A program made the translations under genes and the position numbers. A stretch of DNA of 64,000 nucleotides from Tubulanus polymorphus (Eukaryota; Nemertea; Palaeonemertea; Tubulaniformes; Tubulanidae): positions 5,704,001-5,768,000 of the forward strand of contig NC_134026.1 of assembly GCF_964204645.1 (NCBI RefSeq), given 5' to 3'. Each line of letters opens with the position of its first letter. Within the stretch, counting starts at the first letter, position 1. This document shows positions 6,058-29,770 of this stretch, piece by piece. Under the pieces are notes generated by a model. It was given only the letters and a program-made list of their open reading frames with translations. It was not told where the DNA came from and made no database searches.

Positions 6058-8276
6058 ATCCCTGATATACTGACGCCATGACAAGAAACGTCGAAACGAA
6101 AATAAATTACATAAACCGTGGTTATCATCTGGATTATTGAAATGTATTAAACACAAAAATCGCTTGTACAGAAAATCTTTGCGTAATAGATCACATTTGA
6201 AAAATTATTTGAATTACAAACGTACCTTGTCTCGTACACTCAAATATGCCGAGAAAAAGTATTATGAGACTAAATTACTTGCAGCCAAATCCGACATGAA
6301 AAAATCATGGAATATCTTAAACAGTCTAATTGGAAAATCTTCCAATGATCGGTGTAGATTACCTTGCTCTTTCAAAAGGAACGGTATCGTTGTAAACGGC
6401 TATGAAAATATCGCTAATGAATTTAATTCTTTCTTTGTAAATATTGGTAGCAACCTAGCCAATCAAATACCAGATACAGGTGTCCACTTCAGTGAATATC
6501 TGACAGATCCAGTAAATGAAAACTTTTTCTTTTTCCCAACCCACCCTGATGAAATCAGTCAGATTGTAAATGATTTCTCACCCAGCAAAGGCGCTGGTGC
6601 TGATGGTTTCTCTGTAAAAGTAGTTAAGAAAATAATTGATTCAGTAAAATAACCCGCTAACCGATATCCGTACTGCCTTGCTTTTCTAAAATTCTCGAAA
6701 AGATAGTGTATAATCGATTAACCGAATATTGTAACAAGTTTCATATCATTCAACCAAACCAGTTCGGCTTTCGAAAGAACCATTCAACTGCCATGGCCTT
6801 AACATTGATAACTGATGAAATTTCACAAAATTTAGAAGAAAACAAATCAACTATTGGGGTATTCTTAGATTTATCAAAAGCCTTTGACACCGTTGATCAC
6901 GAAATCTTATTAAGAAAATTATGTTTTTATGGAATAAGAGGCATCTCTAACAACTGGTTTGAAAACTATTTGAAGAATAGAAAACAATTTGTTCAAATTC
7001 AAAATTATAAATCCTCGTTATGTACCGTTAAAACTGGAGTACCCCAAGGCTCAATTTTAGGTCCCTTGCTTTTTTTATTATATGTAAACGACTGTATTAA
7101 ATTTTCTAATGTGTTAAAACTTATATTGTTTGCCGATGACACAAATGCCTTTTATAGTGACATTAATTTAGACAGATTAGTACGTACAGTAAACATTGAA
7201 TTATCAAAATTGTATACCTGGTTTCAAACAAACAAGCTGTCATTAAATGTAAAGAAGACGTCATTTATGGTGTTCGATAAACTATTGAAACATAACTTGA
7301 GAATATCAATTAACAATATAGAGATCAAACAAGTCAATGTCACAAATTTTCTTGGAGTTTTTATTGACAGAAATTTTAACCTGGGACGATCAAATAAAAT
7401 CAGTTGAAAAAAAAGTTTCTCGAAGCATTGGTATAATAAATAGAGTAAGACATAAGCTGCCAGTGAGTTCTCTTCGTACCCTTTATTTGTCGCTTATTGA
7501 TCCTTACCTCCAGTATTGTAACTTAGTTTGGGGACGAAATTTTGAAAATAAACTTCAGCCATTAATTGTATTGCAAAAAAGAGCTATCAGGCTAATTTCT
7601 AATTCCTATTATTTGGCGCACACTGACCCTATATTCAAAGCTTTTAATATCCTCAAGCTCAAAGATATCAATAAACTTCAGCTAGGTACTTTTATCTACA
7701 GATCTGTCCACTCCGAATTACCGAAATCATTCGAAAATTATTGGAACCAAAATTTTCAAATCCACAGTCACAATACTCGGCGACGTCAAGATTTACAAAC
7801 ACTTTCTTTCAATAGTCTAAGAAGAAAATTTTCAGTAAAAGTATCCGGCCCTTTACTTTGGAATAACATCAGTGAAAATCTAAAAAACATGGAAAATTCT
7901 AAACTGTTCCTAAGAAATTATAGAAAGCAACTTTGTGCTTGATTTTATCATACAGTTATTCGAACTAAAATTATTGTTTTTGGAATATTTCAGAAAATAA
8001 CTGGCTTATTAAATGATTATATCTTAATCAAGCTGTTATCATAGTTTACTTTGATTGCATTTTGTGTGTTAAGGGTTGACTGTGAGCATATTATTTTCTT
8101 TATTGCATTTCTCTTTTTTTCTTTTCTCTTTTGAGGGACCTGTTTTATACAAACTATTCCTTAGTTTCTACAGGCCCCTCCAGGTCTAATTTACTGTATT
8201 TTGTATTATGCTTTGTACACTATGCTGTAAATTATATTTGAAAAATAAAGTGTTCAAATCAAAATCAAATCAAAAC
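6058..8276 (+). mobile_element. Non-LTR retrotransposon relic (CR1/Jockey-like), 5' truncated
   Basis: Begins inside the linker between endonuclease and reverse transcriptase; a 'KPW' stretch before 6137 is typical of CR1/L2/Jockey-type elements. It runs through the RT and C-terminal region, then about 300 bases of 3' UTR. An AATAAA at 8243-8248 is followed by a short direct-repeat tail made of TCAAA/TCAAAA units (about 8252-8274), the kind of microsatellite 3' end these elements leave. No endonuclease domain was found upstream. The exact 5' boundary and any target duplication could not be fixed by eye. Clade assignment is by motif style only. Confidence 0.8.
6137..7942 (+). pseudogene. Reverse transcriptase of the non-LTR element, broken
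   Basis: Three open pieces read as one RT protein. Piece 1 (6137-6652) covers the linker and the start of the fingers, ending at a premature stop. Piece 2 (readable from about 6661, to 7407) has the core: LDLSKAFD with its catalytic Asp, the GVPQGSILGPLLF motif, and FADD at 7132-7140. Piece 3 (7337-7942) holds the C-terminal 'YCNLVWG...LQKRAIRLI' region usual in this group, in another frame. Two lesions are visible. Near 6650-6660 roughly 60-70 residues normally found before 'PISVLP' are missing and a stop is present. Near 7375-7390 a one-base frameshift separates pieces 2 and 3. The copy is inactive. Confidence 0.85.
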
Positions 8277-18260: not shown

Positions 18261-19998
18261 ATGTCGCGAAGTTCACAATATTCAGACGACGTTCCGACTC
18301 GTACAAGCCGTCTTGATGAGGTAAGTTTTTTTTTTTTCGAAAAATAAATCTTTTCTAGCTGAATTAGTTTTTTTCTAATGAAGCGGAAATCTATTCAACA
18401 ATCATGAACTTCTATCTACATTTTTCCCTAGATCTTGTCTTCTTTTACGTATGAAATGCCTTTACGAAAAAATTCAAATGAATTCTTTAACCATTGGTGA
18501 AACACTATGTCTGGGTTGTGATGATAAGGCTATAGAGAATTCCACAATAATATAGTTAGATAGATGGATTCCGAAAAGTTTCCTTTAAGCTAATAATTGA
18601 TTTGACATTTCGATTATAACCTAATAGTCATCTTCAGGAATACTTAATTCTTTAGTCTATTCAGTATTTCATTCTTTGAATTATTCTTCTCTTTTGATTT
18701 TGTGAAAACTTTTCTTAACAACTCATCTGAAGAGAAGACAATGCCTTGGTATTTTTCAATCAAGATTCTTGTTCATACTTATTGATGAACTTTGTACGAA
18801 AAACCAATCTTCGTTGAAATTTCTTTTCTAAATCTAGTCAAATCTTTCATTATATATTAATCGATCCTCTTTATTCCTTCCCAATATTATAATAATGTAA
18901 ATTTAAGAAGGAAAATGACTTAAACTTTGCATGCCTACCGTAATTCTAACTCACAACTGAGCTATGATGTTTGCACCATATTGAATTTTAGGCCTACTGA
19001 TCAATTAACTATTAGAAAAATAAGATTCAGATATCCATAATTTCAGAATTGACCATAGGATATATAACATTGTGATTCATGTAAAGTATTTATGCTGTAC
19101 ATGTTTTCTAATTGATGTGTCTTCTGCTTGTGGTGAAAATCCTTCATAAAATACATTATGATCATAGAACAGCAATTAATTTTCATCGACATTAATTGGG
19201 GGTTGAAAATGAGAATGTTATTTCTTCTGATCTTTTTAGAATTCGGTGGAAATATCGCTGAACGATGATGACGAAGAACGTCCGTCTGGCATCATATACA
19301 GATCGGCTCGTAACGACCCGGACGCCGAAGATTTGCCGCTACCCGAATCAAGACCCGGCGTTCAATTCATAGCGCCGAAAGAGCGCAGCGAACCGCGCGA
19401 AGCGCTGCCTACGATTGGCGGTAAAGGCGGCGGCGGAACGTACGTGTTTCAGACGCCCGCGACGGAAGCCCCGCCCGCCTACGACGATTACGAAGACAGC
19501 ACCAACTCGCCGAGATTCGGACCGAGATCGCCGCAGCATCACAATCCGTCACCGCTGATCCAGCAGCCGCCGGTAGATACGCCCGACGCAGCCATGCCGC
19601 AACCGCAAAAAGGGCGCGGTCGCGCGAAACAGCACCTGACTCCAACGCTTCAAACCGAGTCGCAGCCTGTCTCCGTTACTATCAATAAAACTGCCTCTTC
19701 TCCGGCTACGGCTGTCGCGAATAATAGCGGTATGAGAGCTGTACAGCCCGATACGTACTTAGTTTTCTCCATCATTATGTGCGTGTTGTTTTTCCCTCTC
19801 GGTATTCCGGCCGTTTTGTGCTCGTTGAATTCCGACAAGGCGTTCAAACAGGAGAATAATTCGCGGAAAGCGAAAGAATACGGTCTGTTGGCGTTTTACC
19901 TGAACGGTATAGCCGGAATCGCTTTGCTTACCATGATTTTGGTCATACTTATCATGGTTTTCCTTCCAGGGGCTACTGGGTTGATGGTTGTTATTTAA
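18261..19998 (+). CDS. CD225/dispanin family membrane protein, paralog 1
   Basis: Two coding exons, 18261-18320 and 19240-19998, phase 0, coding 272 residues. A TTACAG acceptor six bases before the ATG shows an upstream untranslated exon. Residues 1-190 are a long cytosolic-type region: an acidic 'LNDDDEERPSG' start, then 'DPDAEDLPLP', 'APKER' and 'LPTIG', a Gly patch, a PPAY motif at about 98-101, and a Pro/Gln/Ser/Thr-rich linker. Residues about 191-262 are the CD225 domain: a first hydrophobic segment with Cys residues (MCVLFFPLGIPAVLCSL), a basic 'NSRKAKEYG' loop, and a second long hydrophobic helix. CD225 proteins are small two-helix membrane proteins involved in trafficking, fusion control and, for IFITMs, antiviral restriction; this protein's role is unknown. 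An AATAAA lies at 20257-20262. Its paralog follows at 24236. Confidence 0.88.
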
Positions 19999-24235: not shown

Positions 24236-25413
24236 ATGTCGAAGAATTACAATGTCGTCCCAGGAGCTGAGCCTAATAGCGTAAGTATCCCAACCTCACT
24301 CAATTCAAACCTTTTCCTACTTAGGTAACCGTTTTAACATATATATAGTTCCATAATTGTCTTTTTTTATCAGCAATATCTATTCCATGAAACACTGCCT
24401 TAAATACAGTCATATCGGTAAATACAAATAGCATCAATACACAATGAGCATAAAGCTCATAGCCTACTAATTGAAAATGGATTTCATTTTGGCGGTAACT
24501 TTCAGTAAGGGATTGAATGGACATTCACGTCCGGAAATTACACACAACAGAAAGTCGGTAACCTCCGGAAGATTTTTCTCCGGAATTTAGCCGGGAATTT
24601 CCGGAAGATTACTAGCCCGGGGTCACTGAGATGGATGATGAGATGATGACATGAGTAATGAAGTTATATAGTTTAGCCAATTTTGGAAAAGTCACTGAAT
24701 AAATAAATTCGTGTGAATAGATAGATAGATGAATAAATAAATCCCCCTTTTCTCTTTATCATCAACAGGACGCAGTTGTCCCGTTAAACGACGATGATGG
24801 CCGACCTGGAATTGTCTTCAGGTCCGCCCACAGTGACCCGGATGCTTCCGATTTGCCGCTTCCAGATTCAACCGAAAAAGTGAAATTCTATGCACCGAAA
24901 CAACGCGACCCGAACGCAAAAGAACCGGAGTCGTTACCGATGATCGGAGTGGGTCAAGGTTTACCTCCGCAGTTACAGCCATTAAAAGACGACTCTCCCA
25001 CTCCGTATCGCGATGTAGTGGAACCCGTGGACAGGCCGGCAAAACCGCAGCGAGCATCACCGCAGAAATCCCCTCAGCAAAGCGGCGGTTACATCCCCGC
25101 CGTGCAACAAACAGGCGATCAGGAACAATACAGTTTATGCGACGAAGTTCAACTAGCAGTCCACGGCAGCGGTCCGCAAGTTTATCTGATTTTCTCACTC
25201 TGTAATCTAATCTTCTGCCCGGTGTTCGGGGTTTTAGGGCTGCTGTGTTCGCTAACCGCCCTCAGGCACTTTCGCGCTGGAAATAACGCGGAAGGAAAAG
25301 AGAAAGCGTCAATGTCGTTTTATCTGAACTGGATCGGAGTGGTCACTACACTAACTATAATTCTTGTCATCGTCATTGTAAACGTGTTACCGCATAAAGT
25401 GCTCCTAGTGTAA
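24236..25413 (+). CDS. CD225/dispanin family membrane protein, paralog 2
   Basis: Two coding exons, 24236-24280 and 24769-25413, phase 0, coding 229 residues. The architecture matches paralog 1: an acceptor three bases before the ATG, a very short first coding exon, and one large second exon. The N-terminal block repeats the paralog's motifs in order: LNDDD, RPGI, RSA, DPDASDLPLPDS, APK, LPMIG. A proline/glutamine-rich linker is shorter and lacks the PPxY motif of paralog 1. The CD225 domain spans about residues 148-225: CNLIFCPVFGVLGLLCSL, a basic/glutamate loop 'AEGKEKAS', and a second hydrophobic helix ending near the C-terminus. An AATAAA at 25822-25827 could end the 3' UTR. Tandem duplication is clear; function is not known from sequence. 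Confidence 0.87.
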
Positions 25414-26922
25414 GAATACCGATATTACTGGTTAAAAAATTACATATATATATTATACAGCGCCTCAGTAGCTCATTGCATTCATTGGGCTGAAGTGAAA
25501 ATGTATTCTGACAACATTGATATTTCGCGCTTGGTTTTATCCCCATCGCTGGCAATATTATTAATACTAAGTTTGATAGACAGATATATTAATAATTCGG
25601 ATGAAGCTTCGTATTTTTTACTGTTTTTGAAATATCGTGAGTTCAATTCCCCAGTCTAAGGTTTGTTATATTTTCATCCTAACCGGTTCAGAACTGATGT
25701 CATCTTTGACTCCGGAATTGGACTTGCCAGAAGAGATTTTGAACCGGACAAAAATCTAAAATCGCTACATTAGGCGTAGCAATGTTTGTTATTGCGAAGT
25801 TTTTCTAGCTTTAAATTTTGCAATAAAGATGTTCTAGGTGAAGGGAATCGACCGTTCTATTTTATTAATAATGCTAGTAACGATGTATTTATTGACCTGT
25901 TTTGGATGCAGATAAACAAGCAAGATTTATAATATCTTACGTGAACAACAGAAAATGAAATTATATCGTATTATATTATTTGTCCGTTGTGTATTGTGTA
26001 TTTTTTGGTATAACTAAGTATTTTGTTGTCGTTTTGTAGAATATTTCATTCAATGCAGCAGAGATAAACTTGCATCTCTATAATTCAGTTTTTATGGAAT
26101 TTTAGATTTTCTCGCAACTAATCAACCAGTCAACGCATCTCTGATTTTTAAGAACGTATTTTATTTAGTTTATTGTATTCATTTATACTCTAGATCACTT
26201 GTAGACGACATCTATAGTATGTGAATATTTTTGATAATAGTTAGAAAAAAGAGCAGAAACTATGCAAATAGTTATGACAAAATATTTAAATCTTTGGTTT
26301 CAGTAGTGAGCCTTTTGAATGATAGAATATCTATAGTTTATGTCTCAATGTCGAAATTTTTCTCACATAGGTCATGATTTGCCTATAATTTATATTGTTA
26401 TGCTCTTCGTTGTTGGAAAATTTCGGATGTTAACTCGTGAATTCTGAACATGGTCAATATAACCGATGTTACATGATATAATCTAAATGTAAGTGTATAG
26501 ATTTGTTATGTTAAACTAATAATCGCCTCATATGTTTTATATATATATATATTATTAATCATGCTTTTAAGCGAACGGTCACAGATGTTATTTATATATT
26601 TGAAATGTTAGAAAATATTTCATTCTGTCCATTATGCAGCAAATTCTCCCATTTGAAAATGGAAAATGAAGGTGGTAAAATGAAAATAAACGTGGTATAT
26701 TATGCATTTATCGGTTTCATTAGTTTCGTATTTTGTTACCATCCATTTTGAATCGTCAGCGTTTGAAAATCAATTTAGGCGCTCATCATCAGGCATTGTT
26801 AGAGAGTAGTAAGACCGTATAGGAGGATGTTAGTAACGGGCTTTCAATAATTTCCGAGGGAAGTTCGACGATGTAGCAACTGCAGTGGACAAAATGCCAA
26901 GGCGAACATTTTAGATCTGTTT
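25414..26922. other. 3' flank of CD225 paralog 2
   Basis: Contains the probable 3' UTR with a SINE-like relic (25461-25557) and an (AT)n tract near 26540-26552. No further gene seen. Confidence 0.4.
25461..25557 (+). repeat. tRNA-derived SINE relic
   Basis: 'cgcctcagtagctcattgca' resembles a tRNA 5' arm and A box, and 'ttggttttatccccatcgct' a decayed B box and acceptor end, about 75 bases apart. It does not fold as an intact tRNA. A second B-box-like word (gagttcaattccccag) follows at 25639. Confidence 0.4.
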
Positions 26923-27150
26923 TTGTTATATTTACACATGTATATACAAAAAACATTGTTGACACGTTTCGGCTAACCCATGTTGCCTTCATTAGAACAA
27001 AACCAGAACTAATCGATAGACCGTACGAGTGACTAACATAACATTGAGATGAGAAGAACTTGACAGAAAAATTGACAATGTGATAGCGCGCTTAGAAGAG
27101 CCACTATTAGTAAGCTAGAACGATAACCACACTCAAACGTGGTGAACGGA

Positions 27151-27377
27151 TAATAAGATAAAAATCCCACTATTTACAGATTAAAAGAATTTAAAAACAA
27201 GAATTTATTTATTAAATCTAAAATATTTAAAAGACACGACGTTTCGATCTCACCCTAGAGATGATGATCTCTAGGGTGAGATCGAAACGTCGTGTCTTTT
27301 AAATATTTTAGATTTAATAAATAAATTCTTGTTTTTAAATTCTTTTAATCTGTAAATAGTGGGATTTTATCTTATTA
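27151..27377. repeat. Near-perfect palindrome, arms of about 111 bp, 4-base centre
   Basis: Left arm 27151-27262 and right arm 27267-27377 differ by one inserted A; the centre is gatg. The innermost parts read agagat / atctct and cover 'gacgtttcgatctcaccc' on one side and its complement on the other. The 12-mer tattagtaagct occurs on both flanks (27105-27116 and 27376-27387). Confidence 0.92.
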
Positions 27378-27467
27378 TTAGTAAGCTGTTTGTTCAGTGA
27401 AGGATTGTGTGATTTTATGAATAGTGATTCACGCTATAACTTAGTTCTGAAATTGCTCTGATAAAAG

Positions 27468-27539
27468 CAACATGTGTTAGCCGAAACATGTCAACATGTG
27501 TTAGCCAAAACATGTCAACATGGGTTAGCCGAAACATGT
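27468..27539 (+). repeat. Three tandem 24-bp units
   Basis: Units begin caacatgkgttagcc and end aaacatgt, at 27468-27491, 27492-27515 and 27516-27539, with one or two substitutions between them. Confidence 0.9.
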
Positions 27540-27577
27540 CAACAATACTTTTTGTTTATATGTAAATATAACAAATA

Positions 27578-29770
27578 TATCGATACCAGTAGCAACTATA
27601 GATGGCCTTTTAGTGACTGCCTGCTCTCACTCGGGGAGATTGGTCGTCTTTAGCCGAACGAATAGGGGTTCTTTAGCCCTTTAGTCGCGCGTTGGCATCC
27701 TTAGCATTCCTTCGGTTGGCTCCGTTAGCGCTGTTTGCTGCTTCCCATCTCGTGGTCCAAATAATCTTTTCCAATCTAATGGTTCAATCACTCGATATAA
27801 TGGGAAACGATTCATCTCTTAGAGAGGGGCTGACAGTTTCTAAATACTGAAACGACGTAACGCGCGTAGTCATCACCCAATCTACATCAATTCGCACGAG
27901 TATCCGCCATAAATAAATAACCGCGTACGCCTGGCACGTCTACGGCAATAACTACTATTCTTCGATAATTTCTTCGGTTCTTTGCTCGGGCAAATATCAT
28001 CGAAAGGCTAATTTGAATTTTTAATGTCGAATTGCCATAGTGATTATTGCTACTCTCGCGTCTCGAGTCTAGTATTGATTTGCAGTATCGTGAGGCTAGG
28101 TAACTGCCGCTACTGATCAGCGGGTATTCAGAACGGGACTATCACCACTGACGGCACAACAACGACGGCGGTATAAGGCGTGACCAGATTGGCGGTTTCG
28201 TCACCATTTTCACGTCTCTTGGAACGTAAGTGATTATCAACGTTATCGTAAACCCTTTGTATTTAAACATCTAATTCATTTGTACGTAAGTTGTGTTATC
28301 AAAATATCGAATCAACTGACCTAATGATTTAAATCGATTAATCTAAATTTTGAGTTTAAGACGTTTTTGGTGCCAATGAGCGAACATCAACATTAACAGA
28401 ACTATCAAGATTAACATTACGTTAAATATGTCTGATCATTCTTGTAGTATTAATCAGTGAAATTGGTAAATATTTCGTCGATTTGTGAATCAAGCATAGA
28501 TCATCGGATAGGAACGACGCCAACTGCAGTTTTTTGACGGAATATTCTCTAACAGTGTGACATCCAGATATATACTGCCATTTTGGGATTTTTAGGGAAT
28601 CTGGTGACACAAAAACCGATAAACGATAGTTTGGAATTATTTTAGAAAGTAAAATTCCTGCCATATCTTGAAAATAATGCTTGTACTATTCCATCCATAC
28701 TCTGAGCATAGTCAGCGCGAAATCTTCGTAGTTAGTATTTCCAATAACCTTAAATATTTTGTATTCATGAGGAATGAAACCGGCACTACTCTGGAATTCT
28801 CAATGCGAAACTTCAGTCTAAAACTAAATGAGCACTTACGTTTGAAAAATATAGTTTACTCGGTGCAATGGATGAAACCGCGCAGATTCATGATATCCTC
28901 GTGATGAGCCATAAAAACGCATACAACATTGATTTTGTTTTACGTCATATTCATCGGTCGTCAGGTGTTTTTGAGATCGAATTATTTGATTATTATGTTT
29001 ATACACGTGTATTCATCAATTCATTCATCCATCAAACACTGAAGTTTTGTTCAATACAGTTCTCGCACGGTAAACAAAAAACATTTAACGTACTTGGACA
29101 ATTTTGATGACGTCAGACAGCCTATCAAACGCGACAAATGGCCACTGTTTTCACAAAGATTGTTTAGTTGTCTCGTTTGTTACAGCTGTCTATTTCAGAA
29201 TGGCTACGTTGCCTTGCCTACTGGGGTAATATTCATCTCAAACGTAAACACACAAATTGAACCGTACGACGTTTTATCACAGGATAATTTGTCCCTCGCT
29301 GTATACCGTAATGGACTGAAATGTCGAAATATTGTATCTGGATTGCGATTTCAAATGTCACGCTTTATGGTATCGCCCCACGGTGCAGCCATTAGTTATT
29401 ATCAAATGGTATTATGCCAGGAGACAAGCAGAATACCCGCAGTTCCTATACATGTTTAGAAACCATATGCCATCCCAAAGTGATGAACTATGTGAATTTA
29501 GATCACGATGGAAAAAACCTTTTGTAAACTATGTTCTTCATCGTTTAGAGAATAAAGTCCTTCTTTCATTTTAGATTGTGGTAGGTCGGATGTGAATGTT
29601 ACCCCAAAAATCTTGTTGTGATATTGATACTGATATTTCAAGTGCCATTTAGGAGATCTCTGTGGAATCCATCTTATTTCCTCATTCGAGCAATACGATT
29701 TTTATCTTCATTTCATAACTCATATTGTAGCCCATAGCAATTCATTGTGTAATGCGAATTCTTATTCACA
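27578..29770. other. 5' region and probable first intron of the ankyrin gene
   Basis: A donor GGAAC|gtaagt at 28225/28226 after a GC-richer stretch (about 28060-28225) is a plausible 5' untranslated exon, with intron to the acceptor ttcacag at 29771. Open frames at 28668-29574 show no domain and are probably intronic. Confidence 0.4.

Follow-up and report, generated by a model that had tools for sequence, protein, structure and literature searches.

A young Penelope-like insertion nested within an older, probably Penelope-like, hammerhead-bearing element of Tubulanus polymorphus

Inverted repeats that lie within one another and carry hammerhead-like cores raise the question of what kind of element they come from, and whether they represent one element or more. 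Such a structure occurs in a 64,000-nucleotide stretch of the Tubulanus polymorphus genome (contig NC_134026.1, positions 5,704,001 to 5,768,000 of the forward strand; hereafter the window). Genes for a rhodopsin-family receptor and a BAAT-type hydrolase lie in the window, and its plus strand carries, in overlapping frames, the broken reverse transcriptase of a non-LTR-like retrotransposon (6074-7942; RVT_1, E 1.5e-34) as well as two similar-looking frames about 5 kb apart (19240-19998 and 24733-25413, the second with a weak CD225 match) that look like a tandem gene pair. Between positions 26923 and 27577, the initial annotation had described nested inverted repeats with three hammerhead-like readings, treating them as a single inverted structure suggestive of a decayed self-cleaving element and pointing to the terminal hammerheads of Penelope-like elements and retrozymes. 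Our analysis indicates that the locus very probably consists of a young Penelope-like element (PLE) insertion nested in an older one, with both being dead and non-coding.

Organisation and relative age of the insertions

A repeat search of the window recovered the nested inverted repeats, and the three hammerhead-like readings could be followed in the sequence as described. The inner palindrome is composed of two 102-nt arms (27161-27262 and 27267-27368) that are 100% complementary across a 4-nt spacer, while the outer arms pair 26957-27019 with 27434-27496 at 81% identity and 26941-26985 with 27516-27560 at 91%. DNA searches of the genome (268 Mb, with match counts representing lower bounds) separated this structure into two repeat families, one corresponding to the inner palindrome and the other to the outer arms and interior. 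An outer-element homologue on contig 11 (L006) is free of the inner insertion and possesses the uninterrupted site CCACTATTAGTAAGCTGTTTGTTCAG. Combined with the 12-nt duplication TATTAGTAAGCT, this homologue indicates that a 259-bp unit was inserted into an older element, and the identity of the arms (100% for the inner versus 81-91% for the outer) indicates that the inner insertion is the younger of the two. Thus, the supposed single structure resolves into two separate insertions of different age, and the outer one is wider than initially annotated. Its limits are probably 26882-27588 with a 9-bp duplication GTAGCAACT, which is short and less certain than the inner target-site duplication (TSD), and we infer that a chance repeat of GTAGCAACT is possible at roughly 1%. 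The coordinates of all features are collected in Table 1.

Table 1. Features of the nested locus (window coordinates)
Feature	Position	Strand	Basis
Probable left TSD of outer element, GTAGCAACT	26873-26881		same 9 nt at 27589-27597
Left half of outer element: inverted hammerhead-bearing end, internal part and one inner-TSD copy	26882-27116	-	diverged copies L002-L013, L040, L052 and others
Outer left-arm hammerhead relic	26953-27003	-	model R1 match and alignment with 15 other copies
Left TSD of inner insertion, TATTAGTAAGCT	27105-27116		repeat and L006 uninterrupted site
Inner insertion (259 bp): head-to-head pair of terminal repeats of a young PLE	27117-27375	-	97-100% identity to dozens of genome copies; span and TSD
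33-nt tail, one side only	27117-27149	-	reverse complement CCGTTCACCACGTTTGAGTGTGGTTATCGTTCT
Left pLTR copy of inner insertion with hammerhead 3' half	27150-27262	-	R1 match 27230-27283, 17.7 bits
Right pLTR copy of inner insertion: hammerhead stem II, GAAAC, GUC; CUGA 5' half missing	27267-27375	+	R1 match 27246-27299, 33.8 bits
Right TSD of inner insertion, TATTAGTAAGCT	27376-27387		repeat
Right half of outer element	27388-27588	+	resumes L006-like sequence past insertion
Outer right-arm hammerhead relic: CUGAUAA, GAAA, AUGUC	27451-27499	+	sequence and alignment
24-nt tandem triplication of hammerhead 3' half (CAACATGTGTTAGCCGAAACATGT) in right outer arm	27468-27544	+	repeat search
Probable right TSD of outer element, GTAGCAACT	27589-27597		sequence

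Hammerhead relics and their intact relatives

None of the three window copies retains an intact hammerhead core. The left outer arm reads TTGTT CTAATGA AGGC...AGCC GAAA CGTG TC AACAA on the minus strand (core 26989-26995), with an intact stem I (UUGUU/AACAA), stem II (GGC/GCC), GAAA and C17 being present and CUAAUGA representing a G5 to A change. It matched model R1 with 12.8 bits (E 0.39), and the majority core of 15 aligned other copies is CUGAUGA...GAAA. In the right outer arm, the plus strand reads CTGATAA (27458-27464)...AGCC GAAA (27483-27486) with G8 changed to A. The inner palindrome can be read as ATGATGATCTC...GAGATCGAAACGTCGTGTC, with the 5' half of the hammerhead (CUGA) missing at the palindrome junction. 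The proposal that every copy bears core substitutions therefore applies to the outer arms (G5A and G8A) but not to the inner copy, which has lost a half rather than been point-mutated. A hammerhead that has lost its G5 would be expected to be inactive. Given G5A on the left, G8A on the right and the lost CUGA of the inner copy, no window copy is expected from its sequence to be able to cleave; in the Poseidon element PAc of Anolis, a single C3G or G8C mutation abolishes cleavage (PMC11167929). A further PLE-type relic (CTGAAGA TGACTATTAGGTTATAATC GAAA TGTC) lies on the minus strand at 18596-18645 of the window, matching R1 with 44.1 bits and being close to the L078 family.

The proposed check against Rfam hammerhead models returned no hammerhead in the window at either gathering or permissive thresholds, where only palindrome-driven matches (microRNA, sRNA and similar) appeared. 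Intact copies, including those beside PLE ORFs, also matched no Rfam hammerhead model, and RF00163 gave no match across the genome and likewise none in control genomes. Because Rfam misses intact copies too, its silence carries little weight against these hammerheads. They are similar to RF00163 (Hammerhead_1) in CUGANGA, stem II, GAAA and the UH cleavage site, but differ from it by a stem III of 2-3 pairs without a loop and by an extra nucleotide after A9. A hammerhead call rejected by Rfam may thus still be right, and PLE hammerhead numbers in animal genomes may be underestimated given that the curated models are blind to the minimal ones of this genome.

The families to which the relics belong support their description as decayed Penelope-type hammerheads, and the core bases are conserved in genome copies. 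The exact intact inner-family hammerhead (ACAC CUGACGA U GAUCUC UAGGGU GAGAUC GAAA CG UC↓GUGU) is present in 390 genome copies versus 0 for the reversed pattern, and the exact intact outer core plus AUGUCAACA was found at four loci. The pattern CTGANGA-N(17-23)-GAAACGT gave 4,075 genome matches versus 32 for the reversed control (about 127-fold), and in random sequence of matched composition the strict hammerhead descriptor occurs by chance about 0.0003 times per kb on a single strand. At the family level, the type I core (C3 U4 G5 A6 N7 G8 A9 and G12 A13 A14), the UH site and stems I and II are all present. The predicted minimum-energy fold of the L078 motif is the exact hammerhead outline, while in the folds predicted for other motifs stems I and II coexist with a competing pairing that runs through the core. 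Between A9 and stem II there is a conserved extra nucleotide, which is absent from the textbook hammerhead core; this base is T in 34 of 34 distinct 33-nt core matches, with N7 varying among T, A and C. The conserved T following CTGANGA creates an ATG. We rejected its reading as an ORF start because only 5-codon frames result, as in L095 and L096, where the long ORF lies further downstream.

Pairing is also maintained across families. Four PLE families, found via their endonuclease or terminal repeat, possess differing stems I and II with complementarity kept. In independent families found by a 46-54% identical endonuclease the hammerheads lie downstream, with stem II being GGCUAA/UUAGCC, GACUAU/AUAGUC or GGCUGUU/AACAGCC, and stem I UUAUUC/GAAUAA or CCAC/GUGG among others. 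In a cross-family pair count, 95% of cells were paired and 25 had changed on both sides (shuffled mean 6.3, slid 5-7), with 3 of the 7 sequences having been picked by a descriptor requiring pairing. For this reason, core matches unselected for pairing were also tested, and their stem II was paired in 88% versus a shuffled mean of 68% and 18-45% when slid.

Could the hammerhead resemblance simply be chance in ordinary inverted repeats, as the lack of an Rfam match and the loss of at least one essential base from each window copy might suggest? The 390 exact copies, the compensatory stems across families, the core enrichment and the unselected stem II pairing contradict this, making it extremely improbable. 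Chimeric reads can yield perfect palindromes with a 4-nt centre, and the inner 102-bp palindrome could on that ground be an assembly or library foldback artefact. However, the tail sits on one arm only, the palindrome is bounded by a 12-bp TSD, and many other head-to-head copies exist with different junctions and their own TSDs, so that an artefact is also very improbable, if marginally less so than chance resemblance.

At L063 (2443-3099 and 2247-2421; C2, about 31.33 Mb), we observed a 69-bp tandem satellite (9.6 copies, 97%) whose unit is almost entirely a single PLE hammerhead with a short spacer; an inverted block lies alongside. The satellite occurs at at least 7 genome loci, several near contig ends, and its unit length falls well below the 170-400 nt reported for animal retrozymes.

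Identity of the inner and outer families

The inner palindrome belongs to a large family, with most copies being 97-100% identical (among the 40 scored of 1,392 first-look candidates). Single copies sit downstream of what can be read as a Penelope-like ORF. In L083 (1436-3112), this ORF encodes 558 aa with an RVT_1 match (PF00078, E 9.4e-12), readable PLE-like motifs and a GIY-YIG-like motif stretch VYKIPCFGCDKIYFGETGRDLKTRI read in the sequence. The C-terminal stretch VYKIPCFGCDKIYFGETGRDLKTRISEH of the inner-family ORF is the source of a weak GIY-YIG match in L072 (PF01541, E 5.4e-4; 20.6 bits, below the 22.6-bit cut-off). A 175-aa endonuclease query found no Pfam match, yet its copies align genome-wide, and 4 of 16 copies on contigs 1-3 have, under the strictest pattern, an intact hammerhead 244-254 nt past this match. 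Inner-family copies terminate with a constant 33-nt tail CCGTTCACCACGTTTGAGTGTGGTYATCGTTCT, with the inverted second pLTR usually being tailless, and TSDs of 10-16 bp were present at 12 of the 18 ends examined; the window insertion carries its tail on the left side and none on the right. Inverted pLTRs, palindrome, tail and TSD are all PLE features that the family displays. Judged by sequence, the inner insertion is a head-to-head pLTR pair of a young PLE family with an ORF for reverse transcriptase and a GIY-YIG-like endonuclease.

Intact members of two related families possess a minimal type I hammerhead both just upstream of the ORF and downstream of it, while the inner family has one downstream. 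This hammerhead-ORF-hammerhead arrangement was found at C2:13167879/13170736, C5:7318045/7320901 and C8:5800878/5803730, three loci of the two related families with identical hammerheads about 2,852-2,857 bp apart; the direct pLTR-ORF-pLTR layout is thus seen in the related families and not in the inner family. Adjacent hammerheads less than 300 bp apart were head-to-head in 10/10 and 6/6 cases in two samples, among the matches listed.

For the outer arms and interior, about 20 diverged loci were recovered, most of them with 71-93% identity, and the majority bases of 16 aligned copies read UUUUGUU CUGAUGA A GGCAA...GCC GAAA CAUG UC AACAAUA. A one-sided tail and TSDs occur in L006 (10 bp) and L009 (12 bp) and are plausible in L012 and L063, so that head-to-head hammerhead-bearing ends, a one-sided tail and a TSD are combined as in PLEs. 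No PLE coding partner was found at its 3-kb loci, the single PLE ORF match there being a neighbouring, oppositely oriented fragment in L060, and as no coding part was found the PLE identity of this family is read from plan and motif only. An outer element without a PLE ORF could be a non-autonomous derivative. Within-family covariation gave no signal among the outer copies, whose pairs have decayed to the level of shuffled sequences, which is what dead copies would be expected to show.

The missing coding similarity to PLE ORFs, together with long inverted arms, recurring ends near CCAAGGCG and a low copy number, would fit a DNA transposon of foldback or MITE type, bearing long terminal inverted repeats and a hammerhead that it happened to carry or capture. 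We consider this improbable, because the outer ends are asymmetric, just one of them carrying a tail (about 35 nt), TSDs range between 9 and 12 bp in length, a variation shared with PLEs, arm truncations differ among copies, and the head-to-head hammerhead plan matches that of proven PLEs. A retrozyme belonging to the animal type I class, non-autonomous and mobilised by the protein of another element, would account for an element of about 436 bp (without the inner insertion) that is AT-rich, non-coding and equipped with a type I hammerhead (compare PMC7229834). By contrast, the retrozymes described there are direct tandem repeats bearing canonical hammerheads with loop-loop contacts, while the outer copies are inverted or single rather than direct tandem 170-400 nt repeats, and combine a head-to-head arrangement with a minimal stem III and a tail resembling that of PLEs. 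This origin is unlikely, if less so than a DNA transposon. The reading of an older PLE-type element remains preferred for the outer family. A more specific and doubtful version, to which we give slightly more room than to a retrozyme, is that of a separate PLE derivative that is non-autonomous, is mobilised in trans and has a six-base palindromic stem III (ACAUGU), so that cleavage would require a dimer formed by two transcripts or by two of its units in tandem.

Proposed mechanism and comparison with known systems

Identical hammerheads on either side of the ORF suggest that unit-length RNA could be released when a through-transcript is cleaved, and we infer that intact family members would self-cleave. 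In the proposed pathway, tandem transcripts would self-cleave after UH within every pLTR (for the inner family, GUC↓GUGUC), and the unit-length RNA thereby released would be about 2.85 kb long in the measured families. The PLE protein would then nick AT-rich DNA, with reverse transcription starting in the tail stem-loop. The tail would be explained by the situation in PAc, where a stem-loop located downstream of the hammerhead is the start site of reverse transcription (PMC11167929). A template jump or self-priming near the hammerhead would give rise to the inverted second pLTR and the palindrome, and in the window palindrome such a jump may have removed the 5' half of the hammerhead; head-to-head palindromes have been attributed to self-priming on the antisense template (PMC3846280). 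With its two or three self-complementary pairs (ACGU, or ACAUGU in the outer family), stem III would be expected to support only weak single-molecule cleavage and to favour a dimer or protein help. PAc cleavage needed protein, yet was dispensable for in vitro insertion, leaving the importance of cleavage for PLE movement as a question (PMC11167929). This genome contains more than 4,000 hammerhead-core matches, spread over several PLE families that differ in their stems, and represents a good resource for testing that role.

Hammerheads in PLEs were reportedly described by Cervera and de la Pena in 2014 (cited in PMC11167929). Compared with the PAc hammerhead, those found here share the minimal type I form in a pLTR beside the ORF start, with the start of reverse transcription and the tail in a downstream stem-loop. 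By contrast, the PAc ORF starts at stem II, while the long ORF of L095 and L096 begins further downstream, and the outer family differs by its palindromic ACAUGU stem III. The animal type I retrozymes (PMC7229834) are likewise small, non-coding, AT-rich elements with type I hammerheads, but form direct tandem repeats of about 170-400 nt rather than inverted pLTR pairs of PLEs or PLE-like elements. The endonuclease-containing PLEs with inverted pLTRs, such as Pen2a of Adineta vaga (PMC3846280), share with the present families pLTRs, a single ORF for reverse transcriptase and GIY-YIG, adjacent head-to-head inverted pLTRs and palindromes at the inverted junction; the word "hammerhead" is absent from that paper. 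Their tail of about 31 bp is optionally present on one side and their TSDs are about 8-10 bp, compared with 33 nt (inner family) and 10-16 bp here, and many of the copies examined here consist of little beyond the paired pLTRs. PLE hammerheads, inverted pLTRs, palindromic junctions and optional one-sided tails are thus already published; what is new is confined to the further PLE families of this genome and, perhaps, the six-base palindromic stem III of the outer family.
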